NCBI GenBank assembly: GCA_003194525.1
Contig: NBIV01000017.1
Span: 248,001-312,000, forward strand
Length of the DNA stretch: 64,000 bases
Direction of reading: 5' to 3'
Origin: Gracilariopsis chorda
Lineage: Eukaryota > Rhodophyta > Florideophyceae > Gracilariales > Gracilariaceae
The notes below the pieces were generated by a model. It had not been told where the DNA came from. It ran no database searches and saw only the letters and a list, made by a program, of their open reading frames with translations. Position 1 is the first letter of the stretch. Every line of letters begins with the position of its first letter. The position numbers and the translations under genes were made by a program. Of the stretch, positions 1,758-35,574 are shown piece by piece.

Positions 1758-2221
1758 TTTCAACACCCCACTCTTAATGATTTGCTCATGTATGAGGGGG
1801 GTGTTGTTGACTGATGGGAGGCATTGCGGAACAAAATCGCTTTGCACGCCCCAGTTTGCGCATGCAAAACGCCCATTTTGCGCAACGCCTCCCTACCGTT
1901 TAAAACATTCAGCAGCAGCAGCAAAGCTTGGTGCTTACTGGCTGGCACTCCCATAATGACTGCAGTCCCAGCCACTTACACAAAGCAACGTGTCGCGCTT
2001 TCTCATCATTGGCTGGCACTGCAGTCAATTTAGGCACCTAAACACAAACCCCTACGGATCCACATAATCTACGCGCCGCGGCGCCCCGTGGTTCTACGAG
2101 CGCTATTGTGAATGCAAGCGAGCAAAGTGCTCGGAGAGCCTCCGAACGCTACTAAATACACAAAGCTACAAAAACAACGCGGTGCGGAGCGCCGCCCACG
2201 GCCGAAGGCCGTTTCCACTTG
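1758..2221 (+). mobile_element. Non-autonomous Helitron-like element, copy 1
   Basis: This 464-bp unit has no coding capacity. It starts TTTCAACACCCC, with the inverse GGGGTGTTG at 1798-1806. It carries (CAG)4 and ends with the hairpin ACGGCC-GAA-GGCCGT (2198-2212) followed 9 nt later by CTTG. The same body recurs at 26140-26609 and 26673-27143. The 3' end matches that of the long Helitron whose 5' end starts at the very next base. A hairpin about 10 nt from the 3' end is a hallmark of Helitrons. All visible junctions have T on both sides, which resembles Helentron/Helitron2 insertion between two Ts. Confidence 0.8.
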
Positions 2222-3269
2222 TCTCTCCATAATAAGTATTTATACGCGTATGAGGGGGGTGTTCTTGATTGAATGGAGGCGTTGCGCCACAAAACCATTT
2301 TGCATGCCCCCGTTTGCCCATGCGAAACGCCAATTTGGCGCAACCCCTCCCTACCATTTAAAACATTCAGCAGCAGCAGCAGCACCAAAGCGTTCAGTTA
2401 ATTAGCTGCTGCTGCTTCATGTTGACTGTGCAATGGCTGCTGAATGGCTTGCAATACAGTCAAATTGTAGTGCCAGCCACTCAGCAGCAAACCCCCGGCT
2501 GTTCATTCCAACACGTGGCAAATTGCACTGCGCCAGTGCAGTGCATTCCGACAAGTGGCGAATTGCCCTGCACCAGTGCAATGTATACTGAAGTGTCATT
2601 GCAGATATGCCTGCAACAGACGTATATACTCCACTGGCCCAGTGCCAAATGCATCTCGCTTGCTGACCCTAACCACTATTTTCCATCACATTCAGGCTTG
2701 GCCAATAGCGCAGTGTCGTAACCTTTTGCTACTTTGGGCACTGTTCGCTGGCCTGGGACCTAGGCAAGGCCGAGCTCGTGTGCAAGTCACCACAAGAGTA
2801 ACCCACTAAGTACCACGGATCTGCGAAAGGTCAGTTGCTCCTCTGTGGTATACTGGTGGTTTGACGGCGATCAGGAAGTCTGTGGGTTTACCGGACCTAA
2901 TACCAGCTTGCTGTGCAGGGTCCGGGGCGGCCGCCGTGTCGTACCTCTTGGGGCCGGAAAGCACACTTCGGTGTGTGAGTAAAGTCAGACCAATCCTTAC
3001 AACCGGACGCGAATTGAACATCAAACGGCTTGAAAACCGGCTGGGCACGCTCCGCCCGTCATAATTCAACAGGAGTGTGTCGACAGTCCCTATGCTGCGC
3101 ACGACTGCATCGGGTAAATATAAGCCTTGCAGCAATTTTTTTAATTGCTGCATGCGACTAGGCCCGGTGGGTGCAACGAAACAAACTGTAAGCAGTTTTT
3201 CACTTTCAACTTTGTGTTTTACTGGGAATTAATCTGGAACTCTGGCAAATTTTTTAACGGTTTAAAAAC

Positions 3270-3728
3270 ATGGAATTGTTATTTTCTTTACTTTGGTATA
3301 TTGAAATCGCGAGAGGAGGGCGACGTCTGAACTCTGGTGGCGTCCGATCTAACTCAGGAGGTGCCAGAGACAATTCTGGAGGTGCCAGGTTGAACGCAGG
3401 CGGTGCAAGGCAAAACGCTGGTGGTCGTCGCGTCGGCAGTGGTGGAGCACGGGCAGGGGCTGGAAGACCCCGAAGGGCAAGGGCTCCCCCAGCTCCAGAT
3501 GGGTTGGGAGTAAATGAGAGCGGAGCACACGTTCAAGGACCTATTGTTCCAGCGGTTGAAGAAGACGAAATTACTCCTGCACCTACTTCGGTTGCAGCAG
3601 CAGTTAGCACAAGCGCCGCTGGAGCCAGTGGGTCCGTTGCCGCAGATCTACCAACTTCGTGCCCAATTCCTGGATTTCTGGAGTTTTTGAGAGGCCTTCC
3701 AAGTCACATTACACCGCCTCCGATGCCC
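3270..3728 (+). CDS. N-terminal accessory region of the Helitron protein
   Basis: The frame from ATG 3270 encodes about seven imperfect repeats of the type NSGGAR/NAGGAR, then AGAGRPRRAR, an Arg/Gly-rich AT-hook-like stretch. Next comes an acidic VEEDEITPAP motif that recurs further down in the Rep frame. The shared motif suggests one original protein. The frame changes near a C-rich run at about 3726-3740, by slippage or an unseen intron. Function is inferred only: the basic GRPRR part would suit nucleic-acid binding. Confidence 0.45.
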
Positions 3729-3865
3729 CCCCTCTCCCCCCGATGCCTGCAGAACAGATGCCTGTTGCGATGGAAGTGTAAGAGGATGAGATCACCCCTG
3801 ATCCATCACAGCCACCGCTGCCACAGCAGCCTGCTCTGCCACAAGCTGAACAAGAGGAAGAACAG

Positions 3866-6800
3866 ATGCCAGTCCCGATGGAAGTGGAAGAGGATGAGAT
3901 CACCCCGGCTCCCTCACACCCGCCGCTGCAGCCCGCGTTGCTACAAGCTGAACAGGAAGAACAACAGATGCCCATTCCAATGGAGGTGGAAGCGGATGAG
4001 ATCACACTGGCTCCCTCACACCGGCCGCAGCATCAGCCACAGCAACAGCTTGATACGACGGTCATGCACTGTGCTGGGCGTCCTGATCGAGGAGTCTATT
4101 TCGTGTACTATGTGTGGGATTCCGTGGCAGTTCAGGCGAGGAAAGATCCGGCCATCCGTGCAAGCGTGCCGGAGTTTGAGACGCTACCCACTGCAGGTCA
4201 AAGGCGATGCGGAAGATGTGGCGAACACTCTCACACTCTGCCCTCCTGCCCGTACGCGGACTGGTCATTGAAAATTCATAGCTGCAAGTATTGCGGTTGT
4301 GTTTTGCTTGGCACAGAGGTCACTGGAATGTTCTGTGGAATGAAAAGAATGTCAGGATGGGGCGTCACGTTCCGCAGAAGGCATAGCAGTGAGTTGATTC
4401 GCAGTCCTTATAGCCTGACAGCCTTCCACAGCCATTTACTCAACTTTAATACGCTTTTCGCAACGACGCAAGCGTTCATGTACATGTCGTATGTGACGGG
4501 AGGCGGTCCCTCCTTTCTCAGACTTGAGGGCAACGCAGCTCTCCCTCTACCCACGCAGAACCAAAACAACACGCGCTACAGCTTTCTGTGGGGTACCGGT
4601 TCGCCTTCCTTATATCCATCTCACTATGCGCGTGCCAATTTGCGTGCGTTCATTCAAGACATCGACGTACGAGATATCGTGCCCAAGTTATACGATTTGA
4701 TCCATCCCAAGCCACAGATGGTGCGTGAGCGGTACCGATCCATGCTTAGCACGCAACAACAACAACAAAATGCAGATACCGCCGTCGATATCAGCATGCA
4801 GGCAGCAGAAGAGGGAGTAGTTGTACGTGGTTACGAAGGAACCGGAAGTGCCACAGTCAGTGCTCCTCACACAGGTGCTGGCACTCTCCCTGAAGATGTT
4901 CCTGGTGGCGGGCCAACCATGATGAGAACGCTCGTCGTGGATCCAACTGGCCTGTACCGAGTGGAGTCTCAACTACCGCGCTTGGTAGACGGAACCGTAA
5001 CCGAAGAGCACGCTGCAGTGACGAGTTCGGCTGCTGCTGGAGCAAGGGCGACTGCGAATGCCGCAAACAATGCGCAAGTGCGGTACCGACTTCTAAAACC
5101 GGCATCCAAAATTGCAGAGATGTGGACTTTCCCTCTTCTCTACCCGTATGGTGATCAGCACGAGCCGTTTGACATCGGCCTGTTTCTGGATGCAAAGAAC
5201 TCTACACAGCAAAGCTCGGGTCTCAGCGTCATCGAGTGGAAGCTCCAAAAGCTAACTTGGGCTCAGAACGCGAAGCGACGTTTGTACTCAGACAACATCC
5301 TCCTAGACAGTGGACCGTTGATGCAGATGTGGATGCTCTGCATGCACAAAAACATTGAGGACATTCGACTACGTTTCCTGGAGAGAGAACAACAGGCAGG
5401 TATTCTACAAGAGCAAGAGATCCAGCAAGCACAACAGCAAACAGCTCATATGTCACTATCACAGTTCGCACAAATGGGACGCATATTTCTGCCCGATGAC
5501 TCGGTCAACTCAGCAGCGTACTGGAAGAACAAGCGCATGGATGTACAGGCGATCGTAGCGCGGAGAGGACCGCCTTCTCTTCTCATTACAACCACCATGA
5601 ACATCTGGAGAGAGGATTTTCAGTGCCTTGGTATGGATACCAGCAATCGGAGCGGATTTACGGCACAGAATAACTGCCCTCGACCGTTGGACCCACCTGA
5701 TCTGATTGCAAGGGTGTACAACCAGTACGCAAACGATTTAAAGAAGGACTTGGAGAAGAACTCGGAGCACATCTTTGGATTTAAGTGCCTGGGGCTTGCA
5801 TCAAAGCTTGAGTTTCAGGAGCGCAATGTTGCTCATCACCACATGCTCGTGTGGCTCGAAAAAGGCGTGATTGAAGACGTTGATGTGATCGACGAGCTGA
5901 TTCGTGCAGAACTTCCTCTTCCCGTTGAAGACAACGCGTTGCGTGCCCTCATTCGTTCCATGCACAGGCACCGCCACTCCACCTATTGCCGGAATCGCGC
6001 TGGGCGTTGCAAGTTTGGATACGACGGCAACAAGATTGTGCCGGAGACGTACATTGAAGATGGCACGAATCGCGTGTTCTACCGCAGAAGAAGGCAACAT
6101 GACCTCAAGATAGTGCCGTACAACCCAACTCTGACCAAGAAGTACTGCTCTCATATTAACGTAGAGCGCACGCAAGGAGGGGGCGCAGTGGCTTATCTGA
6201 TGAAGTACGCGTTTAAGCAGCCCAAAGCTCAGGAGGTGGTGATCAATGTGAGTGGTGCTAATGAGACAGGCACACACAACGACCAGCAACAAGAGCCGCA
6301 GGTGCAGAACGACATTCGTGCATACATGCGAGCACGTGTGGTGGGCGCCGTCAATGCAGCTTGGAGAATTTTCGAGTTTCGACATGTTCACATCGTACCA
6401 AAGGTAGAGCGAATGACCATTCACTTGGAAAGAGAGGGCACATTCCTGCTAAGAGGTCCAAATCATCTTCTTTCTGCATCGCAGCCGTCTACACTGGAGA
6501 GATACTTTGCAAGGCCCGAAGCATACGCAAACCTAGACTACCTTTCGTGCTTTGAAAAAGTTCGATTGTGTCGTACGCTTCCAGCCCACGTGCTTAACCA
6601 ATCCGACGGAGACAGCACTCAGTTGCCCACAGACGACTGCGATCCGCCCATGTACATGGTACAGCGCACGGAAGACGAGCAGTGCGTCGCAAGGATCAGA
6701 GGTGTTTCACCGTCCGACATTGAGCTCTTTGCTCTGCGCTTGCTGCTCATGAATCACGGCTCGAGCTCTTATGAAGACGCAAGGACTTTCAACGGACAGC

Positions 6801-7033
6801 AGTATGGAACGTATCGTGTAACTGCGATTGTAAGCGGACTGCGCGCGGACGGATCCGAGTTTGATATTGCATTTCAAGAAGCAGTGCAGATCTACAGCAC
6901 GCCCTCCGAGCTACGACGTCTGATTGTCACACTATACCAACAAGGGGAAGACCCAGAAAAAATGCCCGTCGAAACCTGGGAGGCGCTATGTATCGACATA
7001 CATACAGGAGATGAGCAGCAACGAAAGCAATAA
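3866..7033 (+). CDS. Helitron Rep protein (HUH endonuclease, Helitron_like_N)
   Basis: This 1055-residue frame encodes the rolling-circle initiator of the Helitron. It begins with two copies of a PMEVEEDEITPAPS-type repeat; a further copy lies upstream beyond an in-frame TAA at 3779. Cys pairs around residues 115-143 (CGRCG and CKYCGC) look like a zinc-binding region. The HUH motif is VAHHHMLVWL at residues 655-664. The double-tyrosine motif is YLMKYAFK at 777-784, with Tyr777 and Tyr781 as probable nicking and joining residues. In this family Rep nicks one DNA strand at the element end and joins it to the target. The frame is open from 3782; I chose ATG 3866. The helicase normally fused to Rep follows downstream after a stop. 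Confidence 0.85.
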   Translation: MPVPMEVEEDEITPAPSHPPLQPALLQAEQEEQQMPIPMEVEADEITLAPSHRPQHQPQQQLDTTVMHCAGRPDRGVYFVYYVWDSVAVQARKDPAIRASVPEFETLPTAGQRRCGRCGEHSHTLPSCPYADWSLKIHSCKYCGCVLLGTEVTGMFCGMKRMSGWGVTFRRRHSSELIRSPYSLTAFHSHLLNFNTLFATTQAFMYMSYVTGGGPSFLRLEGNAALPLPTQNQNNTRYSFLWGTGSPSLYPSHYARANLRAFIQDIDVRDIVPKLYDLIHPKPQMVRERYRSMLSTQQQQQNADTAVDISMQAAEEGVVVRGYEGTGSATVSAPHTGAGTLPEDVPGGGPTMMRTLVVDPTGLYRVESQLPRLVDGTVTEEHAAVTSSAAAGARATANAANNAQVRYRLLKPASKIAEMWTFPLLYPYGDQHEPFDIGLFLDAKNSTQQSSGLSVIEWKLQKLTWAQNAKRRLYSDNILLDSGPLMQMWMLCMHKNIEDIRLRFLEREQQAGILQEQEIQQAQQQTAHMSLSQFAQMGRIFLPDDSVNSAAYWKNKRMDVQAIVARRGPPSLLITTTMNIWREDFQCLGMDTSNRSGFTAQNNCPRPLDPPDLIARVYNQYANDLKKDLEKNSEHIFGFKCLGLASKLEFQERNVAHHHMLVWLEKGVIEDVDVIDELIRAELPLPVEDNALRALIRSMHRHRHSTYCRNRAGRCKFGYDGNKIVPETYIEDGTNRVFYRRRRQHDLKIVPYNPTLTKKYCSHINVERTQGGGAVAYLMKYAFKQPKAQEVVINVSGANETGTHNDQQQEPQVQNDIRAYMRARVVGAVNAAWRIFEFRHVHIVPKVERMTIHLEREGTFLLRGPNHLLSASQPSTLERYFARPEAYANLDYLSCFEKVRLCRTLPAHVLNQSDGDSTQLPTDDCDPPMYMVQRTEDEQCVARIRGVSPSDIELFALRLLLMNHGSSSYEDARTFNGQQYGTYRVTAIVSGLRADGSEFDIAFQEAVQIYSTPSELRRLIVTLYQQGEDPEKMPVETWEALCIDIHTGDEQQRKQ

Positions 7034-7237
7034 ATGTATCGACGTGTGGTGGAGATCTCAGACCGGCACGGAGGACGACTTCTTCGCGATCACAGCTTCT
7101 TCTCCCAACACCTACAGCACGATCATCCAGCATTGAATGAGGCAAATCGAGCTACAACACCTCGAGACGTGCGAGTGGTGCGAAACTCGTCAACTTTGCA
7201 GTCAAGTTACGCCACCTAAAAACCTCGCCAACGATAA

Positions 7238-8716
7238 GTCATTGATACGGTCATTGCCACATTGCAACAACGACAGGCGCTGCAGGAGCGAACAAGAACT
7301 CCTGGAAACGTGTTCTTTGTGCAAAGATCCGCAGGAACCGGAAAGACATACGTGCTGAACCTCCTTCGTGATATCGTTGAGTCGGAAGGAATGCTCGCCG
7401 AAATGACTGCTACAACAGGCATTGCAGCTTCGTTGTACGAAGGTGGCCGCACTTTACATAGCGTTCTCGGACTCTATGTAGCTGATAGGGACAGCACAAG
7501 CAGCACTACAGCCACTTTGTCAGCGTACGGTCCCCGATCTCAACGTGCAGAACTGCTAGGCGAAATAAAACTGCTCGTCTTGGATGAGGCGTCCATGCTC
7601 TCAAGAAAGCTCTTCGAGCTCATGGATGGGTTGCTCAAAGATCTTCGCTGCAGTGGAATGGAAAACCCGCCTCCGTTTGGGGGCTTGACCATCGTTCTAT
7701 CGGGCTACTACTCCCAGCTGCTTCCAGTGGTGCTGCAGGTGTACATGGAGGCCGAGCCAACTGGAAATGTGAGACGAGTGTACACAAACATTCTCAACGA
7801 ATTGGCGTGTAAAAGTGATCTGTGGATATTGTGCTCAGTTCAAGTATTGTACCTCACGGAACAAGTACGCCAAGCCGATGATCCGGCATTTGCGTCACTG
7901 TTACGTTCCATTGCACGAAACACAATATCCAACAACGCTCTACTACCACTTAGATCTACCGGTGGCATGCAAACCGCCTACCAATTCCTGTGGAAGTGGC
8001 TCACAACACGACGCAAAGAGGATGTGGATCTCACCAAAATGCTCATTGCCTCCACAAACCAGTTGGTCGACGAACATAATGTGGCAGCGCTAGATCTGTT
8101 TCCTGGTGAGCACTTCACTCTTCCGTCAGCGACAAACGTGCAACCTGTTCGTGGACAGAACCCAGAGTCTGACTTCGCCAGTACTATCGTCTCAGAGTTT
8201 GCATATCAGTATGCGCCTACTGGATTATCGCCTCATAACTTGGACTTCAAAATCAGTGTGCCAGTTATGGTCATTCCGGACGTGCTGCATCCCGCTGTGG
8301 TCGACGGAAAGCTGTTCGTAGTCGTGCTTGTCGATCAATTTACAATGCAGGTGGCTCGATTCGACAAGAACGGACAGGTGCTCGAACGACAGCTCCTGCA
8401 TCGTATCGACTTCGAGTTTTCTTTCGCAGACATTCGCATGATTCGAAGGCAGTTCCCCATTCGTCTTGCACTTGCAGCTGCAGTTCACAAAGGACAGGGA
8501 AAAACCTTGAATGGCTTGGTTGTGGATGTACGATCCAACTTGTTTTGCGCCGGTCAGCTTCATGTCGCATTTTCGCGCGTTCGAAGGAACAACCATGTGC
8601 TACTCCTGCATGACCCGCAGCTTACATCCACAAATGCGCACATAATCCATCCCATGCCTGTGGCCATCGCAAACCCAGTGCTGCCTATAGCAATTCACTT
8701 CTGCATCTCTCCATAA
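7238..8716 (+). CDS. PIF1-like helicase of the Helitron
   Basis: The frame is open from 7238, after a TAA at 7235, and has no obvious ATG before the Walker A region. That fits a once-continuous Rep-helicase protein. Visible motifs are Walker A SAGTGKT (about 7328-7348), TTGIAAS, Walker B LLVLDEASML (about 7571-7600), a Q-containing motif SGYYSQLLPVV, and the C-terminal AAAVHKGQGKTL and VAFSRVR motifs typical of the PIF1/RecD superfamily. The helicase unwinds donor DNA during transposition. Two oddities: the first Walker A glycine is Arg (RSAGTGKT), and the usual GDF..Q of motif III reads GYYSQ. The stretch 7034-7237 between the two genes has no recognised domain. Confidence 0.85.
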   Translation, partial: VIDTVIATLQQRQALQERTRTPGNVFFVQRSAGTGKTYVLNLLRDIVESEGMLAEMTATTGIAASLYEGGRTLHSVLGLYVADRDSTSSTTATLSAYGPRSQRAELLGEIKLLVLDEASMLSRKLFELMDGLLKDLRCSGMENPPPFGGLTIVLSGYYSQLLPVVLQVYMEAEPTGNVRRVYTNILNELACKSDLWILCSVQVLYLTEQVRQADDPAFASLLRSIARNTISNNALLPLRSTGGMQTAYQFLWKWLTTRRKEDVDLTKMLIASTNQLVDEHNVAALDLFPGEHFTLPSATNVQPVRGQNPESDFASTIVSEFAYQYAPTGLSPHNLDFKISVPVMVIPDVLHPAVVDGKLFVVVLVDQFTMQVARFDKNGQVLERQLLHRIDFEFSFADIRMIRRQFPIRLALAAAVHKGQGKTLNGLVVDVRSNLFCAGQLHVAFSRVRRNNHVLLLHDPQLTSTNAHIIHPMPVAIANPVLPIAIHFCISP

Positions 8717-8839
8717 CCATAATCATATTTTTTGCGTTCTTCATTCACTGAATTAAACTACTTGCTTTTCTGCTTTTGCTTTCTTCACCCATTCTTTCTT
8801 CTCACCGCTGTTTATGAATCCTTCTCCGCGGCGCGAAGC

Positions 8840-8870
8840 GCCACCCGCGGCCGAAGGCCTCTTCCTCTTG
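8840..8870 (+). repeat. Helitron 3' terminal hairpin and end
   Basis: GGCC-GAA-GGCC (8849-8859) is preceded by a second GC-rich arm pair (GGCGCGAAGCGCC, about 8830-8842) and followed by CTTCCTCTTG. The short copies end GGCCGTTTCCACTTG, so hairpin and spacing are conserved between long and short elements. Confidence 0.75.
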
Positions 8871-9021
8871 TCTAGGAGGACAGTAATGATTACAATGTGT
8901 AACGGGGTTTTTCACTCACTTACAATGTGAGGTAAGAGTGACTTACACCAGCAAACCTAAGGAGGGGGTTCAATTTGGCTCGTAATCCATCATTATGCTT
9001 AGGAATTAAAGCAGTATTGTT

Positions 9022-18418: not shown

Positions 18419-18733
18419 TGTTGTGAGCAGTATGCCATTGAGCACTCACAATGTTCTCACGTAACACTCTTGCAATATGTGATGTGACGCGCTGGTGTTA
18501 CATGAGAGTGTTACGAGAGGTGATGTGTCTACATCTCGGCCGCAGATAGTACGATACTATTCATTTTTATGTAATATCCGATATGTGTGTTTCCCTGCAG
18601 CTCAGTGATAGAGCTTTGACCACAAGTTAGAAGTACCTTTGATTTTGGCAGGGTTTTGCCAAGGTACGCTTCCATATATAAACGGGATGAGGTTCTTGAA
18701 AGTACAAAGAACTGGTCCCAACCATACCCAACA
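18419..18733 (+). repeat. 5' LTR of young copia
   Basis: 315 bp, TGTTGTGAGC...CCCAACA, about 97-98% identical to 22833-23147. It carries a TATATAAACGGG stretch (about 18675-18686) that is the likely element promoter. Confidence 0.9.
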
Positions 18734-21700
18734 GTGGTAGCATCGCGCTCCACTGGCAACCAACGCTCTGAACTAAAAGAAGCCGTTCCTTAATTGCTTT
18801 CTCAAAGTGTTACAGGACTTTGCTTCAGTGCTGCTATGGATGAAGACAGTTCAAGGAAGGTTCCTCGCTTCTCTGGAAAACCCCACGAGGACTTTACTTT
18901 GTGGATGATGCGAATAGAAGCACTACTGGAATCAAAGGAACTCCCGAATTTAGTTCTAGAAGATGCCGTTGGGGAAGAGACAATTGATGCCCTACCCATG
19001 GAAGTGAAGCAAAACCTCTCAAAGGCTCGCATGTATCTTTTGCAATCTCTTGGAGACAAACCACGACGGGCTGTTGCCTCCGAACGTCAAAACCCATTCG
19101 TTATGTATCGAAAACTGCGTGAAAGGTATTCAACGGAGAATGCTGCGACAAGGGTACAGTTGCAAACGAAGCCACACCAAACTCGGTTTACTGAAGGAAC
19201 AGTAATGTCGGACTAAGTGGATGATTTCGAGTCTTTATTCTCAAGTTTGGAAGCTATGGGAAGTTTTATAGGGAATAGTATGCAGATTGCTATCCTGTTC
19301 TCCAGTTTTGGTTCTACTGGAGAGACGCCATATGGTCCAGTAATATCAGCCCTACAAACTTTGTCGGACGAGGAGTTGTCCTGGGAGAAGGTACCCGCTC
19401 GACTTCTCCAAGAGTATGACACCAGGACTTCAGAGAGGAAAACAGGAGGATCAGGCCCGGCCGGTCCTTTGGGTACGGAGAGGGCATTACAGGCGAAAGT
19501 GAAGGGTAGATGTTTCAAATGTGGCCGAAAAGGACACTACAAACGAGACTGTAGATCGGTCAAACCAGATCATCGTGCAGGTGACCCAAGTACCCATCGA
19601 GCTCTCGTGACCAGACAAGGTGACCACCAATTCATTGTTGACTCTGGTGGAACTAGTCACATGATTGGGGACCGTGCTTTGGCGCATTTATTTCACCGCG
19701 CCCAGCAAAGAGCCATTGTGTTGAGCGATGGTAGGGGTGTGACAGCATCAAAAACAGGACACCTTTGTCTTAATGTATCGCAGCCTGGAATATGCTATGT
19801 AAAGATACTACTGCATGACGTTCTTTACGTTGAAGAAATGGACTGCAACTTAATATCTTGCTCCCGCCTAACGGAGGAACAGTACCAAATATCTTTCGAT
19901 TAATCGGTGTGTCTCATCAGAGGATCGGATGTCATGATCAGAGCACCAAAAAGGTCAGGGGTTTATCAGATTTGGGGCAGTCCAGCTCCGCATGTTGCAT
20001 ATGTAGCGAAAGAACCGCAAGGCCTACAGCTTTGACATGAGAGATTTGGACATATCGGAATCCAGAGAATACGACGAATGACAAGCAAAAACACTGTTCA
20101 TGGACTGGACGTCAATGTATCTCCAGAGCACAGTACCGACTGCACTCCGTGCATTGAACGAAAGATGACACGAAGGAGTCTAGGCAGGAGTAATGATGCT
20201 GCTATGATCGGGGATGTGATATACACGGACATATGCGGTTCTATGAGTACCCCAAGCATCGGACGGAAGAGATACTTTGTGTCTTTCATCGATATAAAGT
20301 CGAGGTACAAGGACGTACGCCTCATGACGAAAAGAAAGGAACTGACACAGGAGTTCAGATGCTTTCAATTGAAGTTTGGGAGACAGGCTGAAAGAAATAT
20401 CAAGGTCGTTTACTCTGATAATGGTCCAGAGTACATTTCACTTCGAAAATATCTCTCCGAAGTCGGAATAGATTGGGAGAACAGTGCTCCATACACTCCG
20501 CAGCAAAATGGAGTCGCAGAACGATTTAACAGGTCGGTTATGGAGATGACTAGAGCAATGTTACGACATGCAGGCCTCCCACAGAAGTTCTGGGCTGAAG
20601 CAGTCGTTACTGCTACCAGAACAATGAACATCATCGGTTGTGGAGCAACTGATGGGAAGACACCTCACGAAACGCTCACTGGGAGGATACCAAACGTTAC
20701 CTCTTTAAGAACGTTTGGATGTGAGGTCTGGGTTCATGTAGCTAAACGGAAGAAGTTAGAGAGCAAAGCTCGCCATGGAATTCTCTTACGCTGCCTCCCA
20801 CACCAGAATTATCGCGTCTATGACATTGAACGTGGAGATATTACGTTCGCAAGGCATGTCAGTTTTAATGAAGCAGTTTTTCCGGGAAGACGATTGTTCA
20901 ACACTCAAGAACAGAAGGAATTGAATGCCATACCTGAAATTGCTGACCGACAGCAAGAATCAGCTGAATCAGATGATGATGGAGAGCCAGAAGCAGAGGG
21001 ACCAGATGGTGCTGAAGCTGACAATGAAGAGGAGCTGGAAACTGGACAGGGTGGAAGTAATGAAAATGTAGATGAAGTCGTGGAAAGTGGTACGAATGAA
21101 GATGAAGAGGACGATCAAGTACTTGAAGCAGAATCGGACCATTTCCCAATGACACCCAGCATGCAAGAATTTTTGACACACTACCCAGTACGCCGCTACC
21201 CTGACCGTCAGCGAAACCCTCCAAATCGTTATCAAGACACATACCATAACAGTCTTGTGACAAGAGAACTATCAATAAGTACCGTCCCTGAAAGCTTGCA
21301 GGACGCGAGTGATTCGCCTCAGTGGCAAAGATGGAGAAAAGCTATTGACGAAGAACTCTCTTCGCTTATGTCGATGAAGACATGGGAAGTTGTGGACAAG
21401 GCTGTTGGAGAGCATATCATAGATTCCAAACTCGTTTTCGCTCAAAAGCATGACGATGATGGCTCTATCAAAAGATACAACGCTCGCCTTGTAGCTTAAG
21501 GGTGCCAACAAGGGAATGTCACAGGTGTCTACTTTCCAGTTGTTGACTTTGGAACTGTACGACTAGCATTGACATTGGCAGCTAGGATTGACTTTGAAAT
21601 ACACCAGTTGGATGTCAAATGTGCATTTCTGAACGGACATATCGATGACAAGAAGCCAGTCTATATGTCTCCACCCAAAGGTCTGGACTTTGGTTTACAA

Positions 21701-22832: not shown

Positions 22833-23147
22833 TGTTTTGAGCAGTATGCCATTGAGCACTCACAATGTTCTCACGTAACACTCTTGCAATATGTGATGTG
22901 ACGCGCTGGTGTTACATGAGAGTGTTACGAGAGGTGATGTGTCTACATCTTGGCCGCGGATAGTACGATACTATTCATGTTGATGTAATATCCGATATGT
23001 GTGGTGCCCTGCAGCTCAGTGATAGAGCTTTGACCACAAGTTAGAAGTACCTTTGATTTTGGCAGGGTTTTGCCAAGGTACGCTTCCATATATAAACGGG
23101 ATGAGGTTCTTGAAAGTACAAAGAACTGGTCCCAACCATACCCAACA
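22833..23147 (+). repeat. 3' LTR of young copia
   Basis: 315 bp, TGTTTTGAGC...CCCAACA. A polypurine tract abuts its left edge and the target duplication GTTTC follows at 23148-23152. Confidence 0.9.
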
Positions 23148-26139: not shown

Positions 26140-26609
26140 TCTCTCCATTATAAGTATTTGTTCTTCTATGAGGGGGGTGTTCTTGATTGAATGGAGGTGT
26201 TGCGCCACAAAATCGTCTTGCACGCCCCCGTTAGCCCATGCAAATCGCCCATTTGGCGCAACGCCTCCCTACCATTTAAAAAATTCAGCAGCAGCAGCAG
26301 CAGCAGCAGCAAAGCTTCCTAATTACTGGCTGGCATTCCCATAATGACTGCAGTGCCATCCAGTTACATAAAGCAACGTGTCGCGCTTTCTTATCATTGC
26401 CTGGCACTGCAGTCAATTTTAGCACCTAGACACAAACTCCTACGGCTCCACATACTCTCGGTGCCGCGGCGCTCCGTGGTTCTACGAGCCGTATTGCGAG
26501 CGCAAGCGAGCAAAGTGCTCGGAGAGCCTCCGAACGCTACTAAGTACACAAAGCTACAAAACCAACGCGGCGCGCAGCGCCGCCCACGGGCGAAGGCCGT
26601 TTCCACTTG
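26140..26609 (+). mobile_element. Non-autonomous Helitron-like element, copy 2
   Basis: The 5' end (TCTCTCCATTATAAGTATTT, then TATGAGGGGGGTGTTCTTGATTGAATGG) matches the long Helitron at 2222. The body and 3' end match copy 1. It carries (CAG)8 and ends CCACTTG. It is joined directly to the next copy at 26610. Inserted in Harbinger-1. Confidence 0.8.
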
Positions 26610-26672
26610 TCTCAACACCCCCACTCTTAATGATTTACACATGTATGAGGGGGGTGTTGTTGATTGACGGGA
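26610..26672 (+). mobile_element. Truncated Helitron-like 5' fragment
   Basis: It starts TCTCAACACCCCC and breaks off at GATTGACGGGA, where a complete copy begins with the same bases. The first ~60 bp are duplicated almost perfectly, so an aborted or rearranged tandem copy is likely. Confidence 0.75.
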
Positions 26673-27143
26673 TCTCAACACCCCCACTCTTAATGATTTA
26701 CACATGTATGAGGGGGGTATCGTTGATTGACGGGAGGCGGTGCGCCAATAACCCGCCCTGTATGCCCCTCTACGCGCTTGCAAAGCTGCCATTTGGCGCA
26801 ACGCCTCCCTACCACTTAAAAAATTCAGCAGCAGCAGCAGCAGCAAAGCTTCCTGCTTACTGGCTGGCACTCCCATAATGACTGCAGTGCCACCCAGTTT
26901 CAAAAAGCAACGTGTCGCGCTTTCTCATCATTGGCTGGCACTACAGTCAATTTTAGCACCTAAACACAAACACCTACGGCTCCACATACTCTCGGCGCCG
27001 CGGCGCTCCGTGATTCTACGAGCGCTATTGCGAGCGCAAGCGAGCAAATTGCTCGGAGAGCCTCCGAACGCTACTAAATACACAAAGCTACAAATCCAAC
27101 GCGGCACGCAGCGCCGCCCACGGCCGAAGGCCGTTTCCACTTG
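26673..27143 (+). mobile_element. Non-autonomous Helitron-like element, copy 3
   Basis: A full-length short copy: TCTCAACACCCCC with inverse GGGGGGT at its 5' end, (CAG)6, then the 3' hairpin ACGGCC-GAA-GGCCGT (about 27119-27133) and CCACTTG. The 5' end is of the copy-1 type rather than that of copy 2. Confidence 0.8.
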
Positions 27144-30100
27144 TTTCAGTGTAATGATTTTGGCAGAATTCTGCTTCGTACTCTGCAGAATTCTGAATGC
27201 GTATGCTCATTATTATAGCTTCAGTCTCCAAGGATGCTTCATGGTAAAACTTAAGTCTCGTGCCGTGTACATCTGCTACAGCGCCATTTCGAAGATCCTT
27301 GACCCGAAATCAGTAATCGAAAAGGGCCTCTACGATGCAACGCGGACCTCGCCAACGAAGTGCTAATTTATCACTGGCAAAGGATTCTTCACAGGCGACT
27401 AAAACAAAATCGCCGATTGCAAAGTCTGCCAGATGGCCCTTAGAACCACGAGAGCAAGACCAGTTACGATTGTGATGGAGTGCATCATGTACGGCGGGGT
27501 GTAACTCTGCACATTACGCCTTCAATGCTTCGATTTTAAGGCATCGTTACCGTTTTGCGACATTGAGCGTGACTGAATAGACTGTGGAGGAGCGCAGAAA
27601 TGCCCAGATTGGTTGCGTCTGTTCCATTCCCATAAAGGCAGTGACTGGTGCGGTATTGTTTTGCGGCTCTGTGATGGAGCATTGTTTAGTGCGCTCTGAT
27701 TGATCGGAAGCAAGTCTGGCCAGTCTTTGAAGTCCATTTGAATTTTGGACACCAGAGCACGAAATGTTCGAACACTTTGCCAAAACGCTGAACTGCGCCA
27801 TTACCATTACTACAGGGTGTGTAGGGAGGAGTGAAATATTGGGGGAGGCGAAGATTTTTGGTGAAGAGACGCACTGTTTCGTTCTCGAAATCTTTTGGCC
27901 CATCGGACATTAAACTATTCAGCACGATGAAGGCTGCGCAGCAATCGATGATTGCGAGGGCTGCGTTCTCAGCTGCGGTTCCAGACGTGGAGAAGGACCA
28001 TTTATAGTCTGAATGGTCATCGTGCAAAATGAGAATTTGCTTCTGGCCAGTGCGGCTGGGACCTATTTCGATGTAGTCAAACTGCAACAAATCATTCGGT
28101 TGCGTGCCATGAACAGCTGGTACAAATGGTCTCGGTACTTTCTGGCCTCCAAGCGTGGACATGAAGTGAATGCATGCTTTGACGAACGTGTGCACATCAG
28201 AAGAAAGTGTGCTCCAGAAGTAGTGTTTCGCCAGAGTCTGCAATGTTACCTGTTGACTGCGTTGTCCGGCAGGACCAGTGTACGCGATGGTACAAAGTCG
28301 GAGTTCGATATTTGTAGCTTCATCAGGAATCCAAATTGCATTGTCAGCAGTGTTCCATATCCCATCGACTTTATTCCTGTTTCCGGGGCGGTTGACTGGG
28401 CGGCTGGACTGGAATTTTGCGATTTCTTCAGCGGATAGCCAGGAAAATGAATCCAACGCGGTAGATGGTAGCACCGAAATCTGCAATAAACCAAATTTAT
28501 TTGGCACAGACTAGCGGGTTAGCATGTAAGCCCAAACGTTGCCCAAACCACTGGTATGAAGGAAGCTATAAGTGTATGCACTGAGGCAACCGGCCCATCG
28601 AAGTACCTTTCAAGTGGAGGAAAAGGCTGAGATCTGGCACCATTGACAGTGGGTTGAACAAGAAAATGAGATTGTTGCGATCTGTATAAAGGTCGAATCC
28701 GGCTGCTGTCACTGCCAGCTATTGCATGCGATCGACAGTTGCCATGATGGCGAAGCCTTCTTTCTCCAACGTAGACCATCCTAGCTGTTTTGCATTAAAT
28801 CTACCTGAAAAGAATGCGAGAGAACTGTGTCGCTAATTCTGGCGACCTTTTGCCAAATCTTCGTGTGGAACCTCAGTCAGGATGCTGGACCAAACTGCAT
28901 CAGATGCATTCTTCTATTTGCAAAGCCGCTGTTTTTCATTGCGATGCGCTAGAGTAATGAGGTGTGTCAGGGCCGTCTTACAAAGTTTGAATGATTTCAA
29001 TTCCTTTACATCCCATCCTAATGTTTCTAGCAAATTGAGGGCAAAGCACGCTTTCTTCGCTTCCCGGCTTGGTCATAAACTCGTTCCATGAACCTTTTTA
29101 GAGGAGATATAAGGTTGAGGAAGTCGTAGATGCCTGTTTTCAGCCATTGAAGTCGCAGAGGAACTGCTGCAGATGTGCACCAGTTGCTGGTGGATCCATG
29201 TTTACAAGGCCATCAAGTAGGCGTTGGTCATGACGAACACGATTGGTTGAAGTGGTTCTGCCACACCAGCGAATGGAAGTGGAAAACAGAATGCACTTAT
29301 TGGGGTGTAAGCGAATTGAACAACTTGCACATATCTGAAAAAGGAGGCGATTATTGTCCAGCAATCCTTAGACGGTAGTGTTATGAGTAGCATATCATCT
29401 AGCCATTAGAGTAGGTGTTCGAGGAGGTCCTTGGGCAGACTTATGGCCAGCACCGATTGTAGGTGGGTCGTTGCAAATGTGGTGCCATGGAGGACTCTGG
29501 TTTGTAGGAACACGCCATCAGAGGTGACGAATGACTGCAGCTCTTGTGATACCTTGTCCAGAGGGAATTGCCAGTATCCATGTGAGCGATGGAAAGTAGC
29601 AAAGGAACGGGAGCCTGCGAGCTTCAAAGGTTCTTGCTCTATATTTTGTATCGGATACTGATGCTACAAGTTGTAGCGGTTGACAGGTCAAAGATCGAAA
29701 GTGAAACGAAAGCGCGAGGGCCTTTGTTTGGGTGGGATGAGAGGTGCGGATGCCCATGGGGAGGAGTGGTCGAGATAGGCCATCCTGGCCTTAACGAGAT
29801 CTGAAACAAAGCTGTCCAGGAACGTTCTCTGGTTTTGTGAGTACTTACGCAGACGTACGCGTACTGGGCGTGCATCAGCTATGAGTTGGATCTTCAAGGG
29901 CGTGACCTGCGCTGGAAGCCTAGAGGACAAGGATGTTCGGAAGATTTTGATGTGATGGTGGACTATGGTCCTGAGTTGAGTTGCATGTTTATGTTGGAGT
30001 CCTTTCTCCACTGCTGCCTCGACCATACTGTTTGCCGCTTCAAGTATGTCTTCATGATTGGCGATGCAGATCGGGTCTAGTAGAGAAGGTTTGGGAAATG

Positions 30101-31911: not shown

Positions 31912-34092
31912 ACCCTCACAAGGGCTTAATTTGGCAGACATTCGTGTGTCTGAGAAACAGGTCAAAACAGACGCGCAGAGGTTGATTCTGCTTCATTTTT
32001 AACTGCTCCAAAACAACGGTTGTCACCAAGGGCTCAATTTGGCAGGCAGATCCCGCGCTCCGCTTCTACCTCTCAACGGTAGTGGCGAATCGCCATCAAA
32101 ACGGAAGCAGCTTCATGCTGTGCGGACGACCGAGGGCAAACATCTACAGTGTTCTTGGCTCTTCTTGGCCACATTGCGATCGGTAAGTCATCAAATTCCT
32201 TACGAGCGTTTGATTCCACCAAAGTCGGAAAGTTCATATCACCTCCCTGACCATCGTTCTCCTTATCCTGCGCTCCAACTCCAAACCCACACCCATTATG
32301 AGTGCCGTTGACATCATTCGGCGAATTGAAAGGACGAATACCTTCTGTTAGCCACAAGGCAGGAGTGCCCCCAGGATTAGTGTTGGGATTTGCTTTCGTT
32401 GGCGTTATTACCGGTGCAGGACGCCAAATTACACTATTCGCTGACGGGTTTTGTTGCAGAACGTTCTCAATCTGACGCAAGCAGTCGCTGGAGCTCGTGG
32501 CTTCGCGAGCAATTTTCCTAACTTCAGTCGCAATCGCATCATCGGCAAGTCGGGAGCTTCCTGCGGCTGGGAGGTTAAGTTGTGTACCGGGCTCTGGTTC
32601 AGGCCGTGGAGACTTCGCAAACTTCATAATTTGGTCCGTGTCAAGCGGGTATAGACCACAGTTGAAGAAGCTTCTGACAGCAAGATTTGCATTCAAAGAC
32701 CGATATGCAGCCGCTGCAAGTTTCATCTTCACGGAGATGTTTGCGTTCAGGTAAGCTCCCTTGTATAAGAACACATCCAAAGCGTTTCTGACATTCTCTT
32801 TGTACACCTTATTTATGTGATCGTCACAACGCTGTAGAAAGTGAGAGGTGTTCGCAGGGAGTTGGATGACTTCAATTTTTTTGGCTACAGCGACTTCAAT
32901 CCATTCTGTCCCCTTTCGTGAACTATGGCCGTCGATGTACAGAAGAATCTTTTCTTCTTGCGGGACAAACTTGCGCACAAAATTGTTGAAGTGTGCTATA
33001 ACTTTCGGCAGTATTTCTTTGGTGATTGACCCCTTTTTGCTGCATACGAGCGCGGTGCCTGTTGGAATCCATTCGCGTTCAGCAAGCCATTTATAGTCGT
33101 CATGATGCTTATCGGTAATGTGTTGTGGAGTGGGATTCATCCTTGATTTCACAGGACGTTTCCCTTCCGCGATGAGGAACATTGGAGCAATATGGCCTGC
33201 AGCACAACTTATGATGACGGATGTAAGGTGCTTTCCACCGTCCTTCATTTTCATTCTGAGACCTCCATTTCTCCGGTTTGCGGCATTGAAGCCACGATAC
33301 CGACGACCGTATGAAGCAGAAACGGCGGTTTCATCCAGGTTCCACACCTTTCGAGGGTCTGTGAAAGGATCTGGCATTTTCTCTTTGACCCTCTTTATGA
33401 TGTCTACTAAGGTTTGTAGGTGTTCGGTGTTTTGTGCCTTGATTCGCTTGAGCACAATATTTTCTGTGCGACGCATTGTTAGTTGGCAATTGCGAGACCG
33501 AAACGACCGTAAAGCATGTATGGAAGGTAGGCCATTCTTGAACGTCTTGCGACCATCATTGGCAATCTGACCCATCATTGACCGCAGTTCATGCTCCCCC
33601 ATCGTAAACGCGCGTTCAGACGCAAATATCGCGCGATCTACCAGCATTTGCTCTTCTGAACGTGTTAGAACTGGTGTGTGACCGGCATGGTGTTCAGTGG
33701 GTGTGAGGAGGCGGTTTAAAGTCTGTGTTTGATCCTTTTTTATAGCTTTCCTGATACGATATAGTGTTCGTTCACTTATTGACGTCGCAGCGGCGACGTC
33801 AGTTATAGTGTGATGGGCTTAAATGAGCTCATCGGCTTTTCGGCGGCGAAGTTGTAAATCTTCCCTTCTACTCTGGGCGGCCTTGAGTTTGGCCGTTTGC
33901 TGGCGCATGGACGGGGGCATGATGCGGTTTGTAGTCTCGGGACTCTGTGTGAGACGCAAAGAGGTAGAACGAAAGTGCAATGGGAGATCCGGGAGCTCAT
34001 TGGGAATAAGAATCTGTTCTCTACTGACTAACTTGTTGTCAAAATGGCTCTGCCAAATTGAGCCCTTTGCCAAATTGAGCCCTTGTGAGGGT
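31912..34092 (-). mobile_element. pogo-like (Tc1/mariner superfamily) DNA transposon
   Basis: The 2181-bp element has terminal inverted repeats ACCCTCACAAGGGCTTAATT / inverse at 34072-34092, and a TA target duplication (31910-31911 and 34093-34094). The empty site survives in the other LTR at 23193-23194. The block AGGGCTYAATTTGGCA is repeated inside both ends (about 31921 and 32029 at the left; two copies within 34050-34085 at the right). It encodes one DDE transposase on the minus strand. Confidence 0.9.
32073..33818 (-). CDS. pogo-like DDE transposase
   Basis: The frame is open from 33818 to the stop at 32073. It begins with a helix-turn-helix (ITDVAAATSISERTLYRIRKA, about 33740-33800) that lies before the first ATG (33647), so the true start was probably further upstream. 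A TAA at 33819-33821 now cuts off a basic N-terminal stretch (about 33822-34073). The catalytic core shows VWNLDETAVS (first Asp), LLYIDGHSSRKG (second Asp) and LPANTSHFLQRCDDHI (third position), as in pogo/Tigger DDE_1 enzymes. It would cut the element at TA sites. With one in-frame stop the copy is nearly intact. The tail after about 32620 is low-complexity and Asn/Gly-rich. Confidence 0.85.
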   Translation of the reverse strand, partial: AHHTITDVAAATSISERTLYRIRKAIKKDQTQTLNRLLTPTEHHAGHTPVLTRSEEQMLVDRAIFASERAFTMGEHELRSMMGQIANDGRKTFKNGLPSIHALRSFRSRNCQLTMRRTENIVLKRIKAQNTEHLQTLVDIIKRVKEKMPDPFTDPRKVWNLDETAVSASYGRRYRGFNAANRRNGGLRMKMKDGGKHLTSVIISCAAGHIAPMFLIAEGKRPVKSRMNPTPQHITDKHHDDYKWLAEREWIPTGTALVCSKKGSITKEILPKVIAHFNNFVRKFVPQEEKILLYIDGHSSRKGTEWIEVAVAKKIEVIQLPANTSHFLQRCDDHINKVYKENVRNALDVFLYKGAYLNANISVKMKLAAAAYRSLNANLAVRSFFNCGLYPLDTDQIMKFAKSPRPEPEPGTQLNLPAAGSSRLADDAIATEVRKIAREATSSSDCLRQIENVLQQNPSANSVIWRPAPVITPTKANPNTNPGGTPALWLTEGIRPFNSPNDVNGTHNGCGFGVGAQDKENDGQGGDMNFPTLVESNARKEFDDLPIAMWPRRAKNTVDVCPRSSAQHEAASVLMAIRHYR

Positions 34093-34368: not shown

Positions 34369-35574
34369 ATGTCCATCATGAACATGAGACTTCGAAAACC
34401 CGCAATAGCAGCTTGTTTAGCGGCGTATACTGCCGCTCTAAGCGTCACTTTTATCATCAAGAAACGCAATGCAAACCGCAGAACGTATGAACGGACACAT
34501 ACTGCAGCCCACCATACCCGTAAAGGGTTGATACATCCAAAGACCACCAAACAGCTCACTATTTGGCAGAAAGTGCTACAACATGGTTGTGATTCAGACT
34601 TCATCGTCACTACCAACTTTACAAGATCAATCTACACACAAGAGCTTCTTCCTCTATTTGTCAAAGCCCGCTTGACAACAACTTCTGGCAGCCCTTACAG
34701 AAGGACTCAGTCCAAAAGAGGAAGAAAGGCTCTGCTGTCGTCCGTTGACTTGCTGGCGTTGGCACTTGCGTATTTGAAAACCGGAGACAAAGCGTACCAG
34801 CTGTGTCCTTTCTTTGGTATTGTACCTTCAACTCTAAGTGTATGGCTCGACTACTCTTTATTTGTGCTTCTAAAAGCGACGAAGCTTCCTGAGGCGAACA
34901 AATTTTACGTTCGCTGGCCAATTGTTGAAGAGCAAAAGTCATCTGCTTATTTACTTCGTAACAATAGAAAATTTGGCCCACTGTTAGAGGGGGTATTTGG
35001 TATCACAGACGGAGGTCGATTTCGCTGCCAAAACTATGGAGACCCCAACTTACAAAACGCGTTCTTCGAGGGCTACACGCAACAAGAAGAGGTCACCAAC
35101 TTGTTTGTCTTTAACTTTTATGGCGAGATCATACATGCGGCCATAAATTATCCTGGAACCTGGCATGACACAAGGCTTGCATCTGTCTCTGGACTGTATC
35201 ATAAACAACTAAGTGATGAAAGAACCCCTCCAGGGATGGCCATTCTTGGAGACTCTGCATTCGTAAACAATACGAGATGCACCAACGGAAAAATCGTTCG
35301 CGCACGCAAAACGAACGAAACGAGTGATATACCGCAGTCAGAGCAGCTAGCCGCGATTGATCTCATTCTGCAACGGATCCTACCAAGCGAAAGGCAAAGC
35401 GCAGAATGGGGAATTCGGGCTCTCAAAGGTCCTTCTAATCGTCTTAGCGCTACGCTAACATCAGACGCAATACGGCGTGGGATTTTACTGGAGTTGTGCG
35501 TACGGCTGTTTAATTTTCGAACACGCACATTGGGAAGGAACCGAATTGTCAGCACCTACAACCCTTCCGAGTGA
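34369..35574 (+). CDS. Harbinger-2 transposase (DDE_Tnp_4)
   Basis: A 401-residue uninterrupted frame, a usual length for the family. A basic N-terminal region (IKKRNANRRTYERTH) and a helical segment (SSVDLLALALAYLKTG, FFGIVPSTLSVWLDYSL) resemble the DNA-binding part. Catalytic residues: Asp in GVFGITDGGRF, then INYPGTWHDTRLA, Asp in AILGDSAFV, and Glu in RQSAEWGIRALKGP. It would excise and insert the element together with the Myb-like partner encoded convergently 102 bp away. ATG 34369 lies 164 bp inside the left end. The sequence differs much from the Harbinger-1 transposase, so the two elements are separate families. Confidence 0.9.
   Translation: MSIMNMRLRKPAIAACLAAYTAALSVTFIIKKRNANRRTYERTHTAAHHTRKGLIHPKTTKQLTIWQKVLQHGCDSDFIVTTNFTRSIYTQELLPLFVKARLTTTSGSPYRRTQSKRGRKALLSSVDLLALALAYLKTGDKAYQLCPFFGIVPSTLSVWLDYSLFVLLKATKLPEANKFYVRWPIVEEQKSSAYLLRNNRKFGPLLEGVFGITDGGRFRCQNYGDPNLQNAFFEGYTQQEEVTNLFVFNFYGEIIHAAINYPGTWHDTRLASVSGLYHKQLSDERTPPGMAILGDSAFVNNTRCTNGKIVRARKTNETSDIPQSEQLAAIDLILQRILPSERQSAEWGIRALKGPSNRLSATLTSDAIRRGILLELCVRLFNFRTRTLGRNRIVSTYNPSE

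Follow-up and report, generated by a model that had tools for sequence, protein, structure and literature searches.

A 64,000-nt stretch of contig NBIV01000017.1 of the red alga Gracilariopsis chorda (the window) was analysed for a Helitron at positions 1758-8870, and the genome assembly (91.3 Mb, 1081 contigs) was searched for its relatives. The assembly encodes light-harvesting proteins (15 matches, part of them exon pieces); the nearest solved structures to one of these are 9kc5 and 7y5e, the latter from Porphyridium, in keeping with a red alga. The sequences are best explained by a Helitron family of autonomous copies of ~6.65 kb, which encode a combined Rep nuclease and helicase (RepHel), and short non-autonomous relatives of ~433-470 bp, whose head-to-tail arrays grow towards the 5′ side by canonical insertions between A and T (A^T), the 5′ end of a resident copy being a good target; block duplication would add to some of the long arrays. 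Taken as a whole, we regard this explanation as probable.

The feature at 1758-8870 in the original prediction does contain a Helitron, but it is in fact two units, a short one followed directly by a long one. The unit at 1758-2221 ends with CTTG at 2221, the unit at 2222-8870 begins with TC at 2222, and this head-to-tail pair occupies a single A^T site (A at 1757, T at 8871). Read directly, the units of the window have a 5′ TC (TTTC in the 1758-2221 unit) and a 3′ CTTG behind the palindrome GGCCGAAGGCC. The third short unit, in the region 26610-27143, is likewise real, but a 63-nt partial 5′ end (26610-26672) precedes the unit proper at 26673-27143. The three short elements had been proposed to share both ends with the long one, and blastn bore this out: the ends were alike and nothing else matched. 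The alignments covered the 5′ 134 bp at 87% identity for 1758-2221, bases 1-163 at 90% for 26140-26609 and 159 aligned bp at 80% for 26673-27143, and in each case the last 44 bp at 84%. The sharing at the 5′ side is thus real, but its length is 134-163 aligned bp at 80-90% identity and not the ~180 bp first given. The features of the window are as follows.

1758-2221 (+): short non-autonomous Helitron, 464 bp, type A 5′ end (TTTCAACACCCC); preceding base A at 1757.
2222-8870 (+): long Helitron copy, 6649 bp, type B 5′ end, abutting the short unit; T at 8871.
2233-2241 (+): 5′ subterminal motif TAAGTATTT, 7 of 9 letters of TAATGATTT.
3270-4271 (+): RepHel frame, N-terminal part up to ~3710, then a frameshift at ~3711-3728.
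3866-7033 (+): Rep region (HUH, Y2), Helitron_like_N (Pfam), terminating at the in-frame stop 7031.
7262-8716 (+): PIF1-type helicase region (Pfam), with stops 7217 and 7235 upstream; P-loop RSAGTGKT.
8827-8870 (+): terminal 3′ 44 bp common to the short elements (blastn), ending CTCTTG.
8871-8892 (+): target flank, T, 12 nt, then TAATGATTA (8 of 9 motif letters).
26140-26609 (+): short Helitron, 470 bp, type B 5′ end; 5′ flank base A.
26610-26672 (+): partial 5′ end, type A, 63 nt, ahead of a full type A unit.
26673-27143 (+): short Helitron, 471 bp, type A 5′ end.
27144-27215 (+): repeat X, target flank TTTCAGTG, then TAATGATTT (9 of 9); uninterrupted paralogue of the array site at locus L042 (GAA^TGCGTAT).

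Across the genome the exact 18-nt 3′ end of the short type was found in 409 copies against none for the reversed pattern, which excludes chance as the source of the shared 3′ ends. Exact 3′ ends of the long type numbered 184 (reversed control 0), including deleted units of ~1.8 kb. Units measure ~433, 439, 464 and 470 bp (short), ~6.65 kb (long) or ~1.8 kb (deleted), and have two main 5′ types, A (TCTCAACACCCC) and B (TCTCTCCAT). The 5′ motif TAATGATTT is present in most type A copies read, and type B copies carry either TAATGATTT or TAAGTATTT, the long copy of the window being among those with TAAGTATTT. This search for ends supports the proposed link between the long element and a family of short relatives. 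As expected for such a family, short ends are abundant and outnumber the copies encoding Rep (409 against at least 44), but the coding copies are not few. The objection that the shared ends might belong to a satellite lacking any Helitron context holds in part, since many copies lie in tandem arrays; the units read nevertheless keep Helitron ends, and the arrays hold coding copies and occupy A^T sites.

Among the 409 short-type 3′ ends, 128 continue directly into TCTCNA; with a slightly laxer 3′ pattern, 133 ends continue into TCTCTCCATTAT. Arrays were read at 25 loci and in the window. Their units meet as CTTG/TCTC, and short, long and deleted units are mixed in one orientation per array, as in the C38 array (near a contig end), which has 15 units, one of them long. 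The base before the array start is A in 19 of 19 starts counted and the base after the array end is T in 31 of 31 flanks used. The 19 starts exclude L035 (follows a 3′ end), L047 (follows CTCG, read as a degenerate 3′ end) and two starts at L049 (both after A), while the target flanks exclude 3′ ends followed by the same or a degenerate related Helitron 5′ end (e.g. L038, L039, L040, L044, L047, L049, L077). The array at L042 is flanked by ...CTGCAGAAATTTTGAA and TGCGTATACTAACTATTA..., and the same repeat is uninterrupted at 27144-27215 of the window (69 of 75 aligned columns), which places the insertion at GAA^TGC of repeat X. At L045 a unit has interrupted an inverted type A 5′ end, at CCCCTCA^TACATG. 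Both sites indicate that the target is entered between A and T, with no base duplicated or lost.

In the target DNA the motif TAAnnATT stands on the 3′ side of the insertion point, in most cases at a distance of 8-13 nt. From the 31 flanks, seven that are 5′ ends of other repeats (R1 and R2, see below) and three that lie in inverted old copies (L045, L063, L081) were set aside, leaving 21 host flanks. Each was scored by its best match, 5-20 nt past the insertion point, to TAATGATTT, which is the elements' own 5′ nonamer and not derived from the flanks; 7009 A^T sites in the rest of the window served as controls. In 20 of 21 host flanks a TAA begins between +7 and +13, counted from the T, whereas among the control sites this holds for 554 of 7009; the TAA is concentrated at +8 and +9. 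The mean match was 6.81 of 9 letters against 4.67 at the control sites, a value that none of 200000 resamples reached. When the 21 flanks are aligned on the motif, the initial T, A and A are present in 20, 20 and 19 and the final A, T and T in 15, 18 and 20. The two lowest-scoring flanks, L039 and L049, are doubtful and were retained. On the 5′ side of the insertion point, base counts in 19 flanks show nothing obvious beyond the A.

The order of neighbours could be read from the other short Helitron-like repeats, whose 5′ ends make up 7 of the 31 flanks (five R1, two R2). R1 is ~310 bp long, with the 5′ end TCTAACCTAACTAAGGATTT and a 3′ palindrome GGGCCGAAGGCCC followed by CTTG; R2, whose 3′ end was not seen, we infer to be a short Helitron-like repeat as well. 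The 5′ motif of R1 and R2 reads TAAGGATT (L057 minus strand, ~1527-1837; 3′ flanks at L038 and L056), and R1 is located 5′ of R2 twice (L092, L098). Of 30 exact R1 3′ ends listed, 20 were counted; C42 (already in L057, also without a family-1 element, that is, one of the family described above, after it) was kept apart and nine were unread. Of 28 R1 5′ ends listed, 20 were counted and four were unread; C37, C47:198750 and C190 (found beforehand through family-1 ends, which precede all three) and C5 (in L038, no family-1 element ahead) were left out as biased. Of the 20 R1 5′ ends, 12 have a family-1-type 3′ end immediately or shortly upstream (eight exactly abutting, four with a few to ~30 extra nt), whereas a family-1 5′ end follows none of the 20 R1 3′ ends (Fisher p 4.5e-5). 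Family-1-type elements thus sit on the 5′ side of R1 elements.

R1 itself appears to have similar targets. The base after its 3′ end is T in 20 of 20, and once four Helitron-derived flanks (L090, L092, L098, L101) were set aside, TAA was present at +7 to +13 in 13 of 16 host flanks, which is weaker than in family 1. None of 200000 resamples matched these 16 flanks, either with the R1 motif TAAGGATTT or with TAATGATTT.

A mechanism of array growth can be proposed in which Rep would apply one specificity to the target and to the 5′ end, where the first nick opens rolling-circle transfer. A resident copy, in which the host A is followed by TC...TAATGATTT, would then be an attractive target, because the target motif resembles the 5′-end motif and the host A still precedes it. 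Newcomers of the same or another family would insert immediately 5′ of the resident, and repeated insertion on this side would yield mixed head-to-tail arrays that share one A^T site. In some long arrays, blocks of units may also have been duplicated through rolling-circle copying or recombination, which would have added further length.

It is unlikely that the arrays are instead rolling-circle concatemers, in which a circular or read-through intermediate is copied repeatedly and inserted as one multimer. The precise CTTG/TCTC junctions resemble the end-to-end junctions described for Helraiser circles (PMC5876387), identical neighbours exist at L050 (436 and 433 bp, 0.0% divergence) and identical units at a distance at L053, and the spacing is regular on C99 (1.94 kb) and C289 (866 bp). 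In two-unit arrays, in contrast, the neighbours are usually unlike in type and each is closest to units of other arrays. This argues for separate arrival and disfavours concatemers as the sole source of arrays, and the one-sided order between families (12 of 20 against 0 of 20) speaks in the same direction.

For the motif, it is improbable that the "host" targets are degenerate 5′ ends of unrecognised old Helitrons and that the motif is a relic of such residents. Seven of the 31 flanks are indeed R1 or R2 5′ ends and repeat X is a dispersed repeat, but the C at the second position of Helitron 5′ ends recurs in just 7 of the 21 host flanks of family 1 and in 1 of the 16 of R1. That the motif reflects mere general A+T richness of Helitron targets is very improbable. 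The targets are 0.67 and 0.68 A+T against 0.53, and Helraiser also favours A+T-rich DNA, most strongly 3′ of the insert (PMC4778049). A+T-matched control sites, however, reached the observed mean in 0 of 20000 draws for the 21 host flanks of family 1 and in 4 of 20000 for the 16 of R1, and these controls disfavour A+T richness alone. In addition, none of 1996 letter permutations of TAATGATTT scored as high (the closest, the one-base-shifted TTAATGATT, gave 6.71), and the concentration of TAA at +8 and +9 is not what richness alone would give. Insertion on the 3′ side, at a non-canonical G^T after the resident CTTG (one of the pair of models that Du et al. 2008 considered for maize), would likewise give CTTG followed by TC, and the G before four of eight free-standing R1 5′ ends makes a G^T start not impossible, but it is barely credible with family-1 elements after none of 20 R1 3′ ends and family-1-type ends before 12 of 20 R1 5′ ends.

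Several observations weigh against growth by 5′-side insertion. Units should be older towards the 3′ side, but only a weak age gradient was seen: over 17 arrays, 288 of 20000 permutations were as extreme (units at least 15% diverged dropped), and the last unit is older than the first in 11 of the 17. Without L053 the value was 95 of 5000 permutations, without the four longest arrays 490 of 5000 and without the C38 array 888 of 5000; a gradient along the arrays is thus weakly supported and is lost without the C38 array. The identical units at L053 and L050 point to local duplication as a contributor to array length. In type A ends the motif stands at +17, beyond the usual +8 to +13, unless a 5′ hairpin shortens the path. 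The R1 motif is weaker past TAA, its sixth position being A in 8 of 16 flanks. Finally, R1 follows the A^T rule imperfectly at its 5′ end: at the eight R1 5′ ends without an upstream Helitron the base before TC is A in three, G in four (L103, L108, L116, L121) and C in one.

A bolder reading of array growth can be put forward only tentatively, since we consider it less likely than otherwise. Sites scoring 7 or more make up 177 of the 7009 A^T sites of the window; scaled to the genome, they would run into the hundreds of thousands, and still 12 of 20 sampled R1 5′ ends have been hit. A genuine Helitron 5′ end thus appears to draw insertions much more strongly than a motif present by chance, and this suggests origin capture. 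Recognition of the origin and choice of the target might then be one event: Rep would nick the A^T before its own 5′ motif, and a nicked resident origin would be captured as a landing site, even across families. Arrays would run from youngest to oldest in the 5′ to 3′ direction, and partial 5′ ends would be traces left where firing of the origin was aborted.

Partial 5′ ends were seen at 26610-26672 of the window (63 nt), at L051 8855-8893 (39 nt) and at L053 5345-5372 (28 nt), a full unit of the same type following each. Their junctions with the full unit are not A^T. Simple self-insertion was considered as their origin and fits poorly, as there is no break at A^T; the ends are too few to explain. 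On the minus strand of L038, at 1062 and 8637, array ends are followed by TAATGATTTACA, a 5′ end without its first bases, as would be expected if an element had inserted within an older 5′ end. Regular satellite-like arrays of Helitron ends are present on C99 (8-22 kb), C121 (0-14 kb), C134 (4-28 kb) and C289 (80-85 kb), with a spacing of ~1.8-2 kb (866 bp on C289).

Pfam matches confirm that the long element carries Rep and helicase regions, Helitron_like_N at 3866-7033 (E 3.1e-19) and PIF1 at 7262-8716 (E 1.9e-33). The copy in the window is broken, by the frameshift at ~3711-3728, by in-frame stops at 3779, 7031, 7217 and 7235 and by R in place of the first G of the P-loop GSAGTGKT. Because the copy is broken, "likely source element" is too strong a term for it, although unbroken copies do exist elsewhere in the genome. 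At least 44 Rep-encoding matches (a lower bound) were scored genome-wide, with protein identities of 87-100%; 23 of the 44 have no stop, and eight of these 23 lie inside open frames of 1807-1809 codons. No particular copy was identified as the source.

An unbroken frame of 1805 amino acids (aa) at L031 gave Helitron_like_N (E 2.5e-27), PIF1 (E 8.3e-39) and Pif1_2B_dom (E 2.5e-6) in Pfam, the remaining models above the cut-off being overlapping AAA ATPase models. It contains PHHHMLVW, YLMKY and GSAGTGKT, which we take to be working motifs of Rep and helicase. The best relative of solved structure is Helraiser (PDB 7lcc; E 7e-79, query residues 605-1762). The L031 frame thus joins an HUH/Y2 Rep nuclease and a PIF1/SF1 helicase in a single protein, as in the Helitron superfamily; in the window this frame is broken.

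The termini agree with this placement in part. Insertion at A^T without target duplication is seen at the 19 starts, the 31 flanks and the empty site of L042, and most units listed begin with TC (the first unit of the window with TTTC). The 3′ ends are CTTG and not the CTRR of strict Helitron1 elements; CTTG ends arose with end mutants of Helraiser and are stated to occur in maize (PMC4778049). The asymmetric terminal inverted repeat of Helitron2/Helentron elements was absent from the four window elements, in which the longest exact match between the first 20 and last 100 nt was 4, 6, 4 and 5 nt, and the Pfam scan of the L031 frame, at E up to 1, gave no Helentron endonuclease domain. With its TC...CTTG termini, which the strict CTRR rule does not cover, the family is assigned to the Helitron superfamily but is not placed among Helitron1 elements of the strict CTRR type. 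A 3′ subterminal hairpin (ACGGCC/GGCCGT, 9 nt from the end) is predicted in the short unit at 27090-27143, with modest statistics (z -1.70; 14 of 200 shuffles fold equally well); the long copy has a different predicted 3′ fold (z -2.19). At the 5′ side, type A ends fold better than shuffles (z -5.3, -2.8) and type B ends do not (z -0.2, -0.9), and a 5′ hairpin was rejected as a general feature for this reason.

Helraiser (Helibat1 of bats) shares with this family the RepHel protein, the 5′ TC, insertion at A^T and an A+T-rich preference strongest on the 3′ side, and an A+T-rich region is noted at its left end (PMC4778049). The G. chorda family differs in its CTTG in place of CTAG, in the discrete TAAnnATT target motif that resembles its own 5′ end and in its frequent arrays. 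Adjacent maize Helitrons, in which the 3′ end of one is directly followed by the TC of a second, unlike Helitron, led Du et al. 2008 (PMC2267711) to propose both a canonical A/T model at the resident 5′ end, which is the one favoured here, and the G/T model. That pair is a single case whose order was not settled, whereas the 20 + 20 ends sampled in G. chorda show a one-sided order. In Fusarium oxysporum, FoHeli (PMC5148889) likewise has repeated partial 5′ termini (first 31, 65, 73 or 85 nt), comparable to those at 26610-26672, L051 and L053, and an occasional tandem is described in a related fungus; it differs in its Helitron2-type termini with asymmetric inverted repeats and in its TNAT^T targets, present in two subgroups, against A^T targets and no such repeat here. 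Red-algal Helitrons are also on record from Gracilariopsis lemaneiformis, where RC/Helitron repeats make up 1.71% of an 89-Mb genome, a percentage being the only description given in the part of that report available (PMC5970526). In the open-licence literature searched, parts of which were available in excerpt, A^T insertion and A+T-rich preference were found; a discrete motif common to target and 5′ end, and a one-sided order, were not.

Other features of the window include a repeat of 142-bp period, with three copies in register, at 528-1029, ahead of the two abutting Helitrons. An integrase frame at 20078-21499 (rve, SH3_retrovirus) is surrounded by direct repeats of 300 nt (18419-18718 and 22833-23132, 98% identical), and the whole is probably a young LTR retrotransposon. 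Neighbouring DDE_1 and DDE_Tnp_4 transposase frames lie at 32073-33647 (-) and 34369-35574 (+), and an FG-GAP / UnbV_ASPIC protein, a type commoner in bacteria, is encoded at 55563-57089 (-).

Whether head-to-tail Helitrons arise as concatemers, by 3′-side or by 5′-side insertion was a question left open by the 2008 maize pair (PMC2267711). In G. chorda hundreds of junctions and a distinguishable second family make the direction of insertion readable. The likeness of the target motif to the 5′-end motif is a concrete candidate reason for the growth of arrays; it predicts a simple DNA specificity for a Helitron Rep and suggests a route by which transposons may become satellite-like arrays.

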